Shown here piece by piece: positions 53,130 through 58,765 of a DNA stretch of 64,000 nucleotides. Location: the NCBI GenBank assembly GCA_021324465.1, contig JAJPJB010000069.1, positions 1 through 64,000 of the forward strand, read 5' to 3'. The notes beneath the pieces are model-generated. The model was not told the DNA's origin. It did no database searches and saw nothing but the letters and a program-made list of their open reading frames with translations. Source of the DNA: Hyphomicrobiaceae bacterium (lineage in GTDB: Bacteria; Pseudomonadota; Alphaproteobacteria; Rhizobiales; Xanthobacteraceae). Made by a program: the position numbers and the translations under genes. The stretch's first letter is position 1. Every line of letters begins with the position of its first letter.

Positions 53130-53248
53130 TCGCAAGCCGCGCCTCCAGCTCAAACCATGCGCAAAGTTGCAGGGCTGAACGGCACTCGTCACAGCGGAGC
53201 AGCCGCACGCGCACTTGCGCCGCAGGCGTTTGAAAAACGCAGCATTGT

Positions 53249-53273
53249 GGAACCGATGCCTGGTTCTGCCGTT
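53249..53273 (+). promoter_or_regulatory. EcfG-type (general stress) promoter candidate for the TOMM cluster
   Basis: GGAAC (53249-53253), a 16-base spacer, then CGTT (53270-53273) matches the alphaproteobacterial EcfG/PhyR general-stress promoter consensus GGAAC-N16/17-CGTT exactly. Transcription would begin near 53280, giving a leader of about 134 bases before the precursor ATG. It is in the 284-base pheT-precursor gap, on the right strand. Confidence 0.5.
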
Positions 53274-53413
53274 GGATTCGGTCGAAAGGTAAAAATGTAT
53301 TGATGTCGTTCCCGATTCGTCGTTGCTTGCCTATTGGCTTGCGTGAAGCGTAAAATGATTTTGCGCTTCGAACAATTTGAGCAAACATACCCAACGGTAT
53401 GGGAGGACTCTCA

Positions 53414-53806
53414 ATGGCGCGCAGTAAGAAAGCGGCAAAACGAAGTCGCGGAAGCAAGGCCATACCGGTCGTTGGAATTGCCGGCGTGTCTTTCGCGATG
53501 GCCGGCGGCGCTTCGGCGTCGACCTCCGGAGCCGTGGCCGATGTAACGGCGCAAAACGCCTCACCTCAGCACCAGCTCTTTCTCGGCGAGGAAGAGATTT
53601 CCGATGTAAGCTTGTCGACCTTCTATGTGTTCGACAAGGAACACGCCGTGCCAGAGCAGAGTGGCGTAAAGACGGCCTGGTGGGGCTGCCGCTGCGGCGG
53701 ATGCCGGTGCGGTGGCTGCCGATGCGGCTGGCGACGCTGCTGGGGTTGCGGCTGTGGCGGTTGTGGCGGCTGTTGCTGGTCCTGGGGTCGTTGCGGCGCC
53801 TGCTAG
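53414..53806 (+). CDS. TOMM/LAP RiPP precursor peptide, Cys-rich core
   Basis: A 130-residue peptide. Residues 1-15 are Lys/Arg-rich, 16-35 hydrophobic and ending GGASAS, like a Sec signal peptide with an AxA site. Residues 59-76 (EEEISDVSLSTFYVFDKE) form an acidic/aromatic segment that probably binds the modifying enzyme. From W89-W90 to the end lies the core: 14 Cys among residues 92-130 in CxC, CGGC, CC and CxxC patterns with Arg, Gly and four more Trp after W90. Heterocyclisation of Cys to thiazoles is expected from the YcaO and SagB genes downstream. ATG 53414 has GGGAGGA seven bases upstream; an earlier in-frame ATG at 53399 lacks such a site. CxxC-repeat cores recall the heterocycloanthracin type of Bacillus, but the leader is different. 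Confidence 0.88.
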   Translation: MARSKKAAKRSRGSKAIPVVGIAGVSFAMAGGASASTSGAVADVTAQNASPQHQLFLGEEEISDVSLSTFYVFDKEHAVPEQSGVKTAWWGCRCGGCRCGGCRCGWRRCWGCGCGGCGGCCWSWGRCGAC

Positions 53807-53862
53807 GCGCGACAGCGCTCCGACGCTTGCGATTGAACTTGCGATTTGAGACAGGTTTTGAT

Positions 53863-53888
53863 GGGCCGGGCCTGACTTGACCCGGCCC
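53863..53888 (+). terminator. Hairpin between precursor and modification genes (attenuator candidate)
   Basis: GGGCCGGG (53863-53870) pairs perfectly with CCCGGCCC (53881-53888) over a ten-base loop. It is followed by AATCTGTGTTGTT, only weakly T-rich. Placed 57 bases after the precursor stop, it would let most transcripts end after the precursor while a fraction reads into the enzymes, the usual stoichiometry for RiPP operons. Confidence 0.6.
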
Positions 53889-53979
53889 AATCTGTGTTGT
53901 TCGCTGCGCTTATCTGCAGACAGTCGCGTGCGCGGTGCATGGGCGATGCTACCGCTCCAGCAGTAAACAGTTACCCGCG

Positions 53980-56316
53980 ATGGCGATTCATACCGGCAGA
54001 AAAGCTGAAGCGCCGCGCGCGAAGCTTACGACGGCCGAGCGCAGTGACGGGCTTGCGCCGTTCAAGCCCAAAGACATTCCGCAATTTGCGCCGAATTTCT
54101 CGGTCTATGTGTTGTCGCCCGATGTCGTATGCCTCTATTCCGAGGACCGGAAATTCTTTTTGCACGGCGAACTCTATTGTGCGGTGGCCGACGCAATCGG
54201 AGCCCGCAAAAGTTTCGCTCAGATCATTCGCCAGCTCGGCAAAAAATACCCGGCTGACGCTATCCATGAAGCGTTCAAGCGTCTGATCGATCGCCATCAT
54301 ATCGTTTCAAGGCGGCGCAGCGATGTCGCTGGCGCCTATTGGGCCAGCCTCGGCCTGCCGCTGGCCGCGGTAGAGACGAATCTTCGCAAGTGCCGCGTGC
54401 GCATTCAATCGATCGATGCGAAGGGCGCAAACGTCCTCCGTAATGCGCTGAGCAAGCTCGGCATTCGCGTCGTACAGGGCGGCCGCGCCGAACTCACCCT
54501 CGTTGTGGTGAACGACTATCTCGACGCGCGGCTCGAGAAATTAAATCGCAAGCATCTGTCGGACCGCACCCACTGGCTGTTGGTGCAGCCTTCCGGCATT
54601 TTTCCGCTCGTGGGCCCGGTCTTGATGCCCGGTCAAACGGCTTGCTGGAGATGTCTCGCTGATCGCATGGCGCGCAATCGTGAGATCAAGGCGCTGCTTG
54701 ATCGCAGACAGGCGCGCCGCATTGTGACCTCACCGCTCGCTCATGACACGCTGGGCCATGGCGGCTTTGCCCTTGCGGCCACCGAGATCGGCAAAGCCAT
54801 TGCGACCGGCTTTCGCACTGATTTGCGCGATCACATCGTCAGCCTCGACCTCTTGGGCGCAAGCATCGCTAGGCACTATGTTACACGTCGTCCGCAATGC
54901 CCGGCTTGCGGCAGCAAGAAGCTGCGCGACCCGGGCAGAGCGCCGCAGCCGATCACGCTTGCGGTCGGCGCCAAACTGATCATGACGAGCGGCGGCTACC
55001 GTTCCGTCACATCGCGGGCGACGGTGGCGCGCAATCGCAAACATATCAGCGCATTGACCGGCGTCGTGTCGCGGCTCGAGCGCCTCGAGGTCGATTTGCC
55101 CCTCAACACCAATTATTACGCCGACCACAATTTCTCCGGCACCGCAGATACGCTCGATGAATTGCGGGCCGGGCGCAGCGGCGGCAGCTTCGGTAAGGGC
55201 AGCACCGCTGAACAGGGCGAGGCCAGTGCGCTGATGGAGGCGATCGAGCGCTATTCCGGGATTTATCAAGGCGACGAGATCCGCATAGCTCGGCGTTTCA
55301 CCGACTTTGCACCCGGTGAGGCCATTTTGCCGAACGACGTGCTGCTGTTCAGCGATGCCCAATATCGCCGCGGCCGGGGGTGGCAGGAGGAGCATGATCA
55401 TCACGGCACCCCGGTACCGCCGCCATTCGATCCATCGGCAAAGATGGATTGGTCGCCGGTCTGGTCGCTGCGCGATCAGCGCTTCAGATATCTGCCGACC
55501 AGCCTGTTATATTTTTTCTATCGCGGCGGGCCGTCGCCCGAACAGATCATCCATGCAGATTCCAATGGTTGCGCCGCCGGCAATACGCGCGAGGAGGCGA
55601 TCGTCCAGGGCTTTCTCGAACTGGTCGAGCGCGATTCCTATGCGATCTGGTGGTACAACCGCCTGAAGCGGACGGAAGTCGATCTCGATCAATTCGACGA
55701 CGCCTACGTCCGCGATCTGAAATCGCAGCTTGCGGAAACCGGACGCCGGGTCTGGGTTATCGACATCACGTCCGATCTTGGCGTTCCGAGCTTCGTGGCC
55801 ATGTCGCACGAGGCGAACAACGGCCACGATTTTGTCGAATATGGCTCCGGCGCGCATTTTGATCCGCGCATCGCGCTGTTGCGCGCGCTGACCGAGCTCA
55901 ATCAGTTTCTCTCTATCGGCCTCCTGGGTGGCCGCGAGCGGATGGAGTCTGACGGGTCGGTTGAGTTTCGCCTGCGGGACCATCCCTATCTGTTGCCGAA
56001 CGGGCCGGGCGCGGTGCGGCCCAATTTCGGCTGCGAATCAAGCGCAGATTTGGCGGCCAAATTCGGCAAGCTTGACACGCGCGAGCAGGTGCTCGCCTGT
56101 GTCGATATCGCGCAACGCGCCGGGCTCGATTTTCTCGTCCTTGATCAGACCCGCCCCGATATCGATGTGCCGGTGGTGCGGGTGATCGTGCCGGGAATGC
56201 GGCATTTCTATCGCCGCTTTGCGCCAGGCCGGCTCTATGATGTTCCGGTTAGGCTCGGGCTACGCGAGCGGCCGCTGGCGGAAGAAGATCTCAACCCGCT
56301 GCATCCGCATACTTGA
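53980..56316 (+). CDS. Fused TOMM cyclodehydratase (E1-like partner plus YcaO)
   Basis: A 778-residue fusion. The N-terminal part (about 1-330) is an E1-ubiquitin-activating-like TOMM 'C' domain, with a winged-helix peptide-binding region (FSVYVLSPDVVCLYSEDRKFFLHGELYCAV) and a zinc tetrad CWRC (about 221-224) and CPACG (about 306-310). The C-terminal part is YcaO, the ATP-using cyclodehydratase: GEASALMEAIERYSG (about 414-428), SNGCAAGNTREEAIVQGFLELVERDSYAIWWY (about 527-558) and ALLRALTELNQF (about 634) give the Mg/ATP-binding Glu residues. It ends NPLHPHT, a variant of the Pro-rich YcaO tail. ATG 53980 has no clear Shine-Dalgarno; an in-frame GTG at 53935 is possible. Its TGA overlaps the next start (TTGA). 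Confidence 0.92.
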   Translation: MAIHTGRKAEAPRAKLTTAERSDGLAPFKPKDIPQFAPNFSVYVLSPDVVCLYSEDRKFFLHGELYCAVADAIGARKSFAQIIRQLGKKYPADAIHEAFKRLIDRHHIVSRRRSDVAGAYWASLGLPLAAVETNLRKCRVRIQSIDAKGANVLRNALSKLGIRVVQGGRAELTLVVVNDYLDARLEKLNRKHLSDRTHWLLVQPSGIFPLVGPVLMPGQTACWRCLADRMARNREIKALLDRRQARRIVTSPLAHDTLGHGGFALAATEIGKAIATGFRTDLRDHIVSLDLLGASIARHYVTRRPQCPACGSKKLRDPGRAPQPITLAVGAKLIMTSGGYRSVTSRATVARNRKHISALTGVVSRLERLEVDLPLNTNYYADHNFSGTADTLDELRAGRSGGSFGKGSTAEQGEASALMEAIERYSGIYQGDEIRIARRFTDFAPGEAILPNDVLLFSDAQYRRGRGWQEEHDHHGTPVPPPFDPSAKMDWSPVWSLRDQRFRYLPTSLLYFFYRGGPSPEQIIHADSNGCAAGNTREEAIVQGFLELVERDSYAIWWYNRLKRTEVDLDQFDDAYVRDLKSQLAETGRRVWVIDITSDLGVPSFVAMSHEANNGHDFVEYGSGAHFDPRIALLRALTELNQFLSIGLLGGRERMESDGSVEFRLRDHPYLLPNGPGAVRPNFGCESSADLAAKFGKLDTREQVLACVDIAQRAGLDFLVLDQTRPDIDVPVVRVIVPGMRHFYRRFAPGRLYDVPVRLGLRERPLAEEDLNPLHPHT

Positions 56317-57809
56317 GGTCGCCTGGCTTGCGCGCCCGCCGAAACAAGGTGAAGCGAAGAGCGACAGGCCTTTGCGTTCGACTGCTCGATCGCGTCACGC
56401 TCCAAGTGCGCAGCGGCGGCGAAATAGTGGCTCGCGTCGACGGCTTTGCGCTTAATCTTGGAAAGGTCAGCGCCGCCGCGGCGGATCGCGCGCAAGAGCT
56501 GCGCTCCGGCGTGCCGTTGAGCTCATTCGCATCTCACAAGACAAGTGCCGAGAAACAATTGGAGCAATTGGTGCGCCGATTGGCTGCACGCGGCCTGATC
56601 GAATACCGGCTCGCCGGTCAAGCGCCGCATAAGGCGCCACATATCGGCGATCACATCATCATCGAACCGCAGCTTCCGGATTATTGGCCACGAATGCAGA
56701 AACTGCGCCAGACGGACAGGCTTGTGCTCTCCCGATTTGCCTATCTGCGCCGCCGCGCCGGCGAGATGGTGTTGGAATCGCCCCGTGCCCCGGCGCTGTT
56801 TCGCATTCGCAATCCCGAAATTGCCGCGCTTCTTGTTGCCCTGTCCACCCCGCAACAGGTCCGCGCGCTGCGCCGGCAGACGAATTTTCCCGGCATCGAG
56901 CTGCTCGCTCTGCTGATCGATAGCCATGTGCTGTTCAAGGTCGGAACGAATGACGAGGGGCTGCGTGCGACCGAAGGTGGCGGCGATCTCGTCGTCTGGG
57001 ACTTCCATGATCTTTTGTTTCACGCGCGCAGCACGGAAGGCCGGCATGCCAATCCGGCGGGCGGCATCTATCCCTATGTTGGGGTGATTGATTCGCCGCC
57101 GGCAGTGCGGCCCGCTTGGCCTGGAGAGAAAATCGATCTGTGCAATCTCTCAGAAGCATCCACGGCAGCGGATTCAGCCGCGGCAAAGCTCCTGCGCGAG
57201 CGACACTCGGTCCGCAATTTCGATGATCGGCGTCCGATTACCCTTGCCGAGCTGGCGCGCTTCCTGGACGCAACGGCGCGCGTCGGTTCGATCGAGAAAA
57301 TCCCGCTTGATCCCGCCCGCCCGGGCGGTCCGATGCTCGCGCATACAATGCGGCCCTATCCTTCGGCAGGCGCCAGTTACGAGCTCGAGCTTTATATCGC
57401 CATCGATAAATGCGAGGGCCTGCCGCGCGGCTTCTATCACTATGATGCCGCCGCGCATGCCCTGACCTTGATTCCTGCCCATCGGCATTGGTGCGAGGCG
57501 TTGCTCAAATCGGCGCAGTCAGCCATGGGCGAGGCTTCGGTGCCGCAGGTTCTGATCACCGTTGCCGCACGCTTCGGTCGAATGTCGTGGAAATACAGCT
57601 CCATTGCCTATGCGCTCATTCTCAAGGATGTCGGCGTCTTGCTGCAGACTTTCTATCTGATGGCGACCGATATGGGACTTGGCGGCTGCGCGATCGGCAC
57701 GGCGAATATCGACCTGTTCGCTAAAATGACCGGCCTCGAATTCCACAGGGAAGGCCCGGTCGGGCAATTTGCGCTTGGCCGCGCTGCCGAGGCGCCCGCC
57801 TCTTCCTGA
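56313..57809 (+). CDS. SagB-type FMN-dependent azoline dehydrogenase
   Basis: A 498-residue protein. Residues about 1-250 form an N-terminal extension with winged-helix-like segments (VTLQVRSGGEIVARVDGFALNLGKV; NPEIAALLVALSTPQQVRALRRQ). Residues about 285-495 are the nitroreductase-like SagB domain: LLRERHSVRNFDDRRPITLAELARFLDATARV, MRPYPSAGASYELELYIAI, RGFYHYDAAAHAL, WKYSSIAYALILKDVGVLLQTFYLMATDMGLGGCAIG. It should oxidise thiazolines to thiazoles with FMN. The start is a TTG overlapping the YcaO stop (TTGA); a GTG near 56351 is an alternative. It ends the TOMM cluster and converges on a VOC gene. Confidence 0.9.
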   Translation: MRSPGLRARRNKVKRRATGLCVRLLDRVTLQVRSGGEIVARVDGFALNLGKVSAAAADRAQELRSGVPLSSFASHKTSAEKQLEQLVRRLAARGLIEYRLAGQAPHKAPHIGDHIIIEPQLPDYWPRMQKLRQTDRLVLSRFAYLRRRAGEMVLESPRAPALFRIRNPEIAALLVALSTPQQVRALRRQTNFPGIELLALLIDSHVLFKVGTNDEGLRATEGGGDLVVWDFHDLLFHARSTEGRHANPAGGIYPYVGVIDSPPAVRPAWPGEKIDLCNLSEASTAADSAAAKLLRERHSVRNFDDRRPITLAELARFLDATARVGSIEKIPLDPARPGGPMLAHTMRPYPSAGASYELELYIAIDKCEGLPRGFYHYDAAAHALTLIPAHRHWCEALLKSAQSAMGEASVPQVLITVAARFGRMSWKYSSIAYALILKDVGVLLQTFYLMATDMGLGGCAIGTANIDLFAKMTGLEFHREGPVGQFALGRAAEAPASS

Positions 57810-57829
57810 CAATCTCTGCGACCAACTCT

Positions 57830-58702
57830 TTACCAGGCCCAGCGCCGTCCTGGGGCGCCCCGTGGGGCGGCGCGCTCGAAATAGCCGGGCGCCTTTTCGT
57901 TCCGCTTCTCTATGAGTGCGAACATGACGCCTTGCGGATCGGCACAGCGGGCAACGCGGCTGCCACCCGTAACGTCGACGGGTCCTTCGAGAATTTCGCC
58001 GCCGCCGGCGATGACTTGCCCGGTGGCGACACCCATGTCGCGAACATTGAAGTAATAAAGCCAAAACGGCTTGGCCACCATTGACGGCTTGGTGAACATG
58101 CCGCCGATCGTCTGCCCGCCGATCGAGAACGGCTGATAAGTGCTGATCGAGCCGTTCTCTTTCTCGATCTCAGGCTCCGCTTTCTGCCAGCCAAAAAGCT
58201 TCTGGTAAAAGGCGAAGGCCAGTTCCGCATCAGCAGCGAGCAATTCGTGCCAACCGACCCGTCCCGGCTTATCCAATGCGTCGGTTGGCGATGGCGCCGG
58301 ATTCGACCATTTAACCAGGGCCAGCGTTGCCGTTTGCGGATCCGCGGCAATCGCAAAGCGGCCGATATCGGGAATGTCGGTTGGCAGGATATACAACGCT
58401 CCGCCGCGCCGCTGGATCTGCGCGGCGGCGGCATCGACATCATCAACCCCGACATAGCCGAGCCAATGCGGCTGCGCCCCCATCGCCATCACTTCGTTCG
58501 GCAGGGTCGTCAGCCCGCCGACCGAAACCTCTCCGGCCATCAGCAGCGTATAGGGCATGGCGGGACTAGGGGCGTCCTGCATGCGCCATCCCATCACCTT
58601 GGCGTAGAAGCGTTTGGCGGCCGCCGTGTCTGTCGTCATGAGCTCGTACCAAAGAAAACGGCCGTGAAGATCGAGCCGATCGGTCATCGCTGTTTCAGCC
58701 AT
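57830..58702 (-). CDS. Two-domain VOC (glyoxalase-fold) protein
   Basis: A 290-residue protein with two VOC repeats. The first is GRFLWYELMTTDTAAAKRFYAKVMGWRMQDAPSPAMPYTLLMAGEVSVGGLTTLP...HWLGYVGVDDVDAAAAQIQRRGG (about residues 13-105). The second is GRVGWHELLAADAELAFAFYQKLFGWQKAE...LYYFNVRDMGVATGQVIAGGGEILEGPVDVTGGSRVARCADPQGVMFALIE (about 148-262). The family includes glyoxalases, ring-cleavage enzymes and resistance proteins; substrate unknown. A Pro/Arg tail ends the protein. It is convergent with sagB and not in that operon. Confidence 0.9.
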   Translation of the reverse strand: MAETAMTDRLDLHGRFLWYELMTTDTAAAKRFYAKVMGWRMQDAPSPAMPYTLLMAGEVSVGGLTTLPNEVMAMGAQPHWLGYVGVDDVDAAAAQIQRRGGALYILPTDIPDIGRFAIAADPQTATLALVKWSNPAPSPTDALDKPGRVGWHELLAADAELAFAFYQKLFGWQKAEPEIEKENGSISTYQPFSIGGQTIGGMFTKPSMVAKPFWLYYFNVRDMGVATGQVIAGGGEILEGPVDVTGGSRVARCADPQGVMFALIEKRNEKAPGYFERAAPRGAPGRRWAW

Positions 58703-58765
58703 GCCTGCTTCTCTGTGCGCCCTGGCGCCGGGGGCGCTCCATCAGCGTTGACGGGCCACTGCGCT

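Follow-up and report, generated by a model that had tools for sequence, protein, structure and literature searches.

The first 64,000 nucleotides of contig JAJPJB010000069.1 from a Hyphomicrobiaceae bacterium (GenBank assembly GCA_021324465.1; hereafter the window) carry a four-gene cassette which we assign with high confidence to the thiazole/oxazole-modified microcins (TOMMs), and which is an accessory element widespread in Hyphomicrobiales. It encodes a Cys-rich precursor peptide, a fused E1-like/YcaO cyclodehydratase, a SagB-family dehydrogenase and a two-domain protein of the vicinal oxygen chelate (VOC) type. A preliminary description of this DNA had read the first three genes as a TOMM cluster, and all three bear this out. 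The reading favoured here for the whole cassette, to which we give a probability of about 0.42, is that thiazoles would be formed in the cytosol, that the product would leave the cell by Sec-type export, that the VOC protein would serve as a binder conferring immunity and that the product would be antibacterial outside the producer.

The precursor gene (53414..53806, forward strand) encodes 130 amino acids with 14 Cys, all between residues 92 and 130. Its best start is the ATG at 53414, behind a ribosome-binding site, GGGAGGA (53401..53407, forward strand), and similar purine-rich sites occur in most of 12 upstream regions compared; the stop codon ends at 53806. The Cys-rich precursor announced in the preliminary description is therefore real, and it represents a conserved family that lacks a Pfam or NCBIfam model: a search against Pfam at E 1 was empty, NCBIfam at the same threshold listed TIGR03601 alone (16.2 bits against a cut-off of 35), and its profile found nothing among solved structures even at E 10. 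Across an alignment of 21 precursors, from which truncated copies and second precursors were left out, the plan is the same: a basic N-terminus of KRKR type, a hydrophobic stretch ending near an AxA motif, an acidic motif with the consensus ITLGEEExSDVSLATFYVFDKEN, a spacer, and a core of Cys, Gly and Arg that varies in length and usually ends in CCxSWGxCxxC. This exact end is found in 60/77 precursors of a wider set that includes second precursors. In the window the acidic motif is LGEEEISDVSLSTFYVF (residues 57-73; 53582..53632, forward strand), in which E60, E61, D64, L67 and F70 are invariant in 21/21, and its position and conservation make it the probable recognition sequence for the cyclodehydratase. 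The core (residues 92-130; 53687..53803, forward strand) ends in CCWSWGRCGAC. The ratio of nonsynonymous to synonymous change (pN/pS), computed over 93 close precursor pairs that share ancestry, was 0.24 overall, which shows purifying selection.

Residues 1-35 of the precursor (53414..53518, forward strand) resemble a signal peptide, with a basic n-region, a hydrophobic stretch and A33-S34-A35, as judged from sequence features and shuffles. In 74 of the 76 distinct precursors an AxA motif occurs close to where the hydrophobic stretch ends. Shuffling of the first 60 residues gave a mean of 26.0 such cases (maximum 35 in 200 shuffles), and shuffling confined to the hydrophobic stretch a mean of 50.8 (maximum 60). 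The mean net charge before this stretch is +6.4, the lowest value being 0 at locus L142, where the start is uncertain.

The fused cyclodehydratase (53935..56316, forward strand; start at GTG 53935 or ATG 53980) scores above the cut-offs of TIGR03604 (248.2 bits) and TIGR03882 (143.8 bits) and reaches 327.2 bits with Pfam YcaO. Its residues 49-789 align with LynD (4v1t, E 2.1e-149), as well as with TruD and MusD, and a winged helix-turn-helix (wHTH) domain lies at residues 50-119. The zinc tetrad C222, C225, C307 and C310 (counted from ATG 53980) matches that of LynD and is invariant in 20/20 orthologues; the acidic YcaO motifs, too, are kept in these orthologues and in the alignment with LynD. 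The SagB-family flavin mononucleotide (FMN) dehydrogenase with a ThcOx domain (56313..57809, forward strand) scores 176.6 bits with TIGR03605 (cut-off 78.4) and 108.8 bits with ThcOx, resembles CyaGox most closely (5lq4, 8pz5; E 1.7e-59 over residues 132-492) and contains W426-K427-Y428, invariant in 21/21, with the Lys-Tyr pair of SagB enzymes. Its TTG start overlaps the TGA stop of ycaO. The fusion with its Cys tetrad and the overlapping SagB-type gene thus agree with what had been described before. Given the domain matches, the alignments with LynD and CyaGox and the kept motifs, both enzymes look active, and their chemistry would follow from their families.

Two features of the cyclodehydratase may be added. 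At its C-terminus (56280-56316 of the window) it reads NPLHPHT, not the PxPxP with which many TOMM YcaO proteins end, and among 20 orthologues neither P776 nor T778 varies. At one locus (L051, genome G099) two overlapping frames make up the cassette ycaO, which is therefore either broken there or misassembled.

Co-occurrence of the genes, the mapping of which the preliminary description had proposed, was followed in samples of 296 genomes of the family and 397 of the order and in a named set comprising the best 80 of 506 confirmed relatives, which is not a random sample and in which 15 of the 80 loci are probably from the same genomes as members of the family sample. In the family sample 26/296 genomes had a YcaO match at E 1e-60, orthologous in 24 (at least 63% identity) and only distant in two (G012, G176). 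A precursor hidden Markov model (HMM) built from 21 precursors matched 21/296 genomes, all of them among the 24 with an orthologous YcaO, and none of the other 272; in the remaining three of the 24 (G049, G117, G132) the contigs end inside ycaO. The order sample holds precursor and orthologous YcaO in the same seven genomes, five of which are already in the family sample, while G429 and G606 carry distant YcaOs and no precursor. The named loci are mostly from Bradyrhizobium, with others from Methylocystis, Methylosinus, Methylocapsa, Methylobacterium crusticola and a Beijerinckiaceae metagenome-assembled genome. SagB is present at 80/80 of them and the precursor at 72/80, the other eight having at most 425 bases of contig before the ycaO frame; YcaO/SagB pairs regularly devoid of a Cys-rich reading frame upstream, which the preliminary description had named as an observation that would count against it, were looked for and did not appear.

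The cassette is not confined to three genes, as had been supposed, because a VOC gene is its conserved fourth member. In the window this gene (57830..58702, reverse strand) encodes a protein with the Pfam domains Glyoxalase and Ble-like_N in two stretches each, which from its sequence would be cytosolic. It stands beside the cassette at 64/80 named loci, upstream and divergent at 55 and downstream and convergent at nine, and at one locus (L127) lies about 1.1 kb from sagB; of the 16 loci without it, six are on contigs cut short and ten are Methylocystis-type. Within the genus of the window, a VOC match (E 1e-20) was obtained in 7/20 genomes and always at the cassette, the eighth cassette genome (G049) having its cassette on a contig of 3,220 bases. 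The earlier view of the VOC gene as a housekeeping neighbour is ruled out by this association, by its occurrence in the genus only at cassettes and by its position inside the insert described below.

The nearest solved relative of the VOC profile is Rv0577 (3oxh; E 1.4e-49), and the structure model has a mean predicted local distance difference test (pLDDT) score of 81.7. An alignment of 20 VOC sequences contains no invariant His column and only two invariant Glu columns; the lack of an invariant His makes a binder more likely than a metalloenzyme. The gene is also linked to the end of the core, since an SWG end is present in 62/63 main precursors at VOC loci and in 0/9 at loci without VOC. 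The VOC protein is evidently not needed for the chemistry itself, given the Methylocystis-type loci that have none nearby.

The preliminary description had placed the genes in a core-genome context. This did not hold, for the cassette is patchy (24/296 family genomes) and the site is empty in most of the relatives examined. The comparison took in nine of the 18 genomes in which pheT was matched. In 7/9 the FAD amine-oxidase gene comes immediately after pheT and the four cassette genes are missing, which marks 53130..58765 of the window as an insert between these two genes, including the VOC gene. Of the other two, G146 has 2.3 kb of different DNA between pheT and the FAD gene, and G002 showed no FAD gene in the stretch examined after pheT; in three of the nine (G146, G076, G002) the cassette is present on another contig. 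The window neighbours pheT, the FAD gene and C92 were not found at other cassettes. The G+C content of the insert (0.613) hardly differs from that of its flanks (0.618 and 0.626), so composition does not show the insertion, and a search of the insert for repeats gave only short, chance-like matches, with no target-site or transposon signature; neither composition nor repeats of the insert bear a mark of the mechanism.

In the reading favoured here, the cyclodehydratase would grip the EEE(I/L)SDVSLATF motif through its N-terminal wHTH/E1-like part, much as LynD binds a leader motif, and convert core Cys to thiazolines, which the SagB enzyme would oxidize to thiazoles. As the core has 14 Cys, the product of the window could contain at most 14 rings. 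The N-terminus of the precursor would then serve as a conventional Sec-type signal peptide with cleavage at AxA, and a dedicated exporter or Gly-Gly peptidase would be unneeded. The VOC protein would bind the modified peptide, most likely for self-protection in the manner of the bleomycin-binding VOC proteins that confer resistance, and the product would most likely act outside the producer, probably against competing bacteria. Our confidence in Sec-type export is moderate; in VOC immunity and in an antibacterial role it is lower.

For the export step we surveyed open reading frames (ORFs) of at least 100 amino acids at 89 loci, mostly within about 6 kb on either side of ycaO, using a simple gene caller that missed some known genes and recovered ycaO in 84/89 loci. 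Beyond the four cassette genes no such ORF family occurs at more than 15/89 loci, and among these families there is no exporter or protease common to the loci. The nine next most widespread are, by Pfam, OpgC (15 loci), a permease (BPD_transp_1) of the ATP-binding cassette (ABC) type (10), NDUS4 (9), a carboxyltransferase (8), a histidine kinase (8), a dihydroxy-acid dehydratase (7), an oligopeptide-type ABC ATPase (7) and two without a Pfam match. In the genome of the window the best score against the NHLP exporter TIGR03796 is 457.3 bits, below the cut-off of 853.3, and 14 control genomes are below it as well. The one C39-type domain found in that genome belongs to an ABC transporter beside a large repeat-rich protein, and by eye its N-terminus lacks what we take to be the catalytic Cys. 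The simplest reading is that the signal peptide replaced a dedicated exporter. Sec signal peptides are highly unusual in precursors of ribosomally synthesized and post-translationally modified peptides, and have been shown experimentally for bufferins only, according to PMC12452194.

Several observations weigh against the reading we favour. Hydropathy exceeds the 95th percentile of shuffled N-termini in only 39/76 precursors. The core is conserved at least as well as the leader (pN/pS 0.19 vs. 0.28), unlike an arms-race toxin, and the second precursors described below stand away from the enzymes. Ten Methylocystis-type loci have no VOC gene nearby, nine of them with contig on both sides, and Rv0577, the nearest solved VOC relative by sequence, is not known as an immunity protein. 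The link between VOC and the SWG end may reflect shared ancestry, and has exceptions in L142 (Methylobacterium crusticola) and in L031 and L039 of the family sample, where VOC is present and the ends are altered. Finally, the ABC permease near the cassette at 10/89 loci and the oligopeptide-type ABC ATPase at 7/89 (e.g. L107:9781-10926 and L149:11575-12708) look like local synteny, although a role in peptide uptake or transport linked to the cassette is possible.

With the same chemistry, the VOC protein might instead tailor the C-terminal module CCxSWGxCxxC as an enzyme. Some VOC proteins are indeed biosynthetic enzymes, the gene and the SWG end mostly go together (62/63 vs. 0/9, as above), and the profile also matches proteins that bear no other name than “Glyoxalase” (8eo9, 8stb, 9jt3). 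We nevertheless consider a tailoring role unlikely, as the VOC alignment has no invariant His and just the two invariant Glu columns, a Trp occupies, in the invariant WYEL/WHEL motifs, what we take to be the position of a metal ligand in metal VOC enzymes, and the three exceptional loci combine a VOC gene with a precursor lacking the usual end. A different function altogether is conceivable for a product that would be a secreted or periplasmic polythiazole or polythiol protein handling metals, not an antibiotic, by analogy with bufferins, which PMC12452194 describes as made by MNIO enzymes, carrying Sec signal peptides and chelating copper. The signal-like N-terminus and conserved core would suit such a protein, as would cores that are Cys-rich and in some members His-rich, and a multicopper oxidase lies near the Methylovirgula locus. 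This appears distinctly unlikely to us, however, since the thiols are lost when thiazoles form, patchy occurrence as an insert is rather what one expects of competition genes and no metal gene was recognized by Pfam among the nine most widespread other neighbour families (two without a match). That the cluster is degraded or silent in the genome of the window is very improbable: all four frames are intact, the catalytic motifs are kept, a promoter-like element and a ribosome-binding site precede the precursor, and the precursor is under purifying selection in relatives.

Compared with known systems, the cassette has the features of TOMMs or linear azole-containing peptides (LAPs), with a YcaO cyclodehydratase and its E1-like partner, a SagB dehydrogenase and an adjacent Cys/Gly-rich precursor with a conserved leader. 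It shares the arrangement of a known cluster type in which precursor, C-D cyclodehydratase and SagB dehydrogenase adjoin, and differs from it in the signal-like N-terminus, the VOC partner and the absence of an exporter or protease common to the loci. In its Cys-Xaa-Xaa repeats with insertions and deletions and its conserved C-terminal end the precursor resembles the heterocycloanthracins (TIGR03601), whose precursors may stand far from the enzymes according to PMC2674419 and PMC4603692. Their cyclodehydratase, according to the latter source, is shorter by about 100 residues at the N-terminus and requires an F protein, whereas the cassette enzyme aligns with LynD from residue 49. The assignment was rejected because the precursor falls short of the TIGR03601 cut-off (16.2 bits against 35) and the N-terminal recognition part is present (wHTH, 50-119). 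The F protein (ocin-ThiF-like, TIGR03693) had no match in the genome of the window or in any of the 14 control genomes, and there is none among the widespread neighbour families of the cassette.

The cyanobactin enzymes LynD, TruD and MusD share the architecture of the cyclodehydratase over nearly its full length, and the cyanobactin oxidase (CyaGox/ThcOx) is similar to the dehydrogenase over the last ~360 residues. A cyanobactin was nonetheless rejected, as the precursor has no PatE-like match in the NCBIfam scan. Proteases of PatA/PatG (subtilisin) type were not found among the cassette genes and the nine other neighbour families, the part of the genome searched for them. Cyclodehydratases of NHLP/Nif11 TOMM systems are 34-40% identical to that of the cassette (e.g. 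37% in Nostoc sp. C057), such distant relatives adjoin NHLP exporters and Nif11/NHLP precursors, and these systems have a similar acidic motif of L-S-E-E-E-L type (PMC2887384). Membership of this class was rejected as well, since the 21 precursors have no conserved Gly-Gly after the acidic motif and no NHLP exporter in the genome of the window exceeds the cut-off; a Gly-Gly before AxA is common in these precursors, not constant.

One member of the precursor family has probably been noticed before. Haft 2009 (PMC2674419) refers to a proposal by Lee et al. of a precursor from Bradyrhizobium japonicum in which Cys-Arg-Gly is repeated; this peptide is alike in genus and repeat type and probably belongs to the family. 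The main text of the 2015 TOMM survey (PMC4603692) contains neither “rhizobi” nor “methylo” and has no group heading naming such a group. In the literature searched (titles and starts of abstracts, with partial coverage) we found no description of the precursor family, the VOC partner, the signal-like N-terminus or the nature of the cassette as an insert. The suggestion in the preliminary description that the product may be undescribed thus holds only in part, given the Cys-Arg-Gly peptide in PMC2674419.

It is conceivable, if rather unlikely in all its parts, that the cassette represents a TOMM lineage in which a Sec signal placed before the recognition motif replaces both exporter and leader peptidase, so that a polythiazole protein of ~95 residues is exported, and in which a VOC protein specific to the cassette binds the modified chain within the cell. 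Were a TOMM to carry a Sec signal, the general secretion route would have to accept chains bearing many thiazoles, and the timing of modification ahead of export would become a question. The association of a VOC gene with a ribosomal azole peptide offers a testable immunity hypothesis, which, if true, would to our knowledge be the first case of VOC immunity for such a peptide. The cassette occurs in many strains of Bradyrhizobium, whose members are symbionts of legumes, and in genera related to methanotrophs, so its product may play a part in competition in soil and nodules.

Five genomes contain a second precursor that belongs to this precursor family (L162:7325-7864, L163:6169-6681, L164:6866-7387, L165:912-1421 and L048:5685-6104), four on contigs other than that of the cassette and one beside the VOC gene. 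Those of G076, G002 and G097, from the genus of the window, share another core, with a short Cys run, a GT..Y stretch and a basic tail rich in Pro and His. Methylocystis-type precursors (L150-L152, L154-L157, L159, L160 and L180:6569-6970) share a Cys where the hydrophobic stretch ends (LAGAAC/LAGAGC), which makes a weak lipobox-like site; the SWG end is missing from them, and their surroundings yielded no VOC gene. Another TOMM-like precursor, with a run of Cys and Pro at its end and an NHLP-looking leader, lies on a plasmid of Bradyrhizobium sp. 155 (L182:5068-5418), where it adjoins a distantly related YcaO/SagB pair and lies near transposases.

Upstream of the precursor gene of the window is a promoter-like element (53327..53356, forward strand) made up of TTGCCT (53327-53332), 18 bases and TAAAAT (53351-53356), with GCG before the -10 hexamer. 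The pattern CTTGC-N14-19-GCGTA occurs upstream of precursors in 41/78 cases in its strict form and 49/78 in its loose form, vs. 2 and 9 of 380 random 250-mers from the same loci, in a set that includes many close relatives and the 12 sequences from which the pattern was derived. An unusual sigma-factor site was considered and rejected, as the element reads as an ordinary TTGCNT-N17/18-TANNAT promoter. A palindrome, TTCATGAA, often within GTTCATGAAGATGAATG, lies up to 200 bases upstream of 37/78 precursors (at named loci and at the second precursor of L162) and was not seen in the window; from its form and position it may be an operator.

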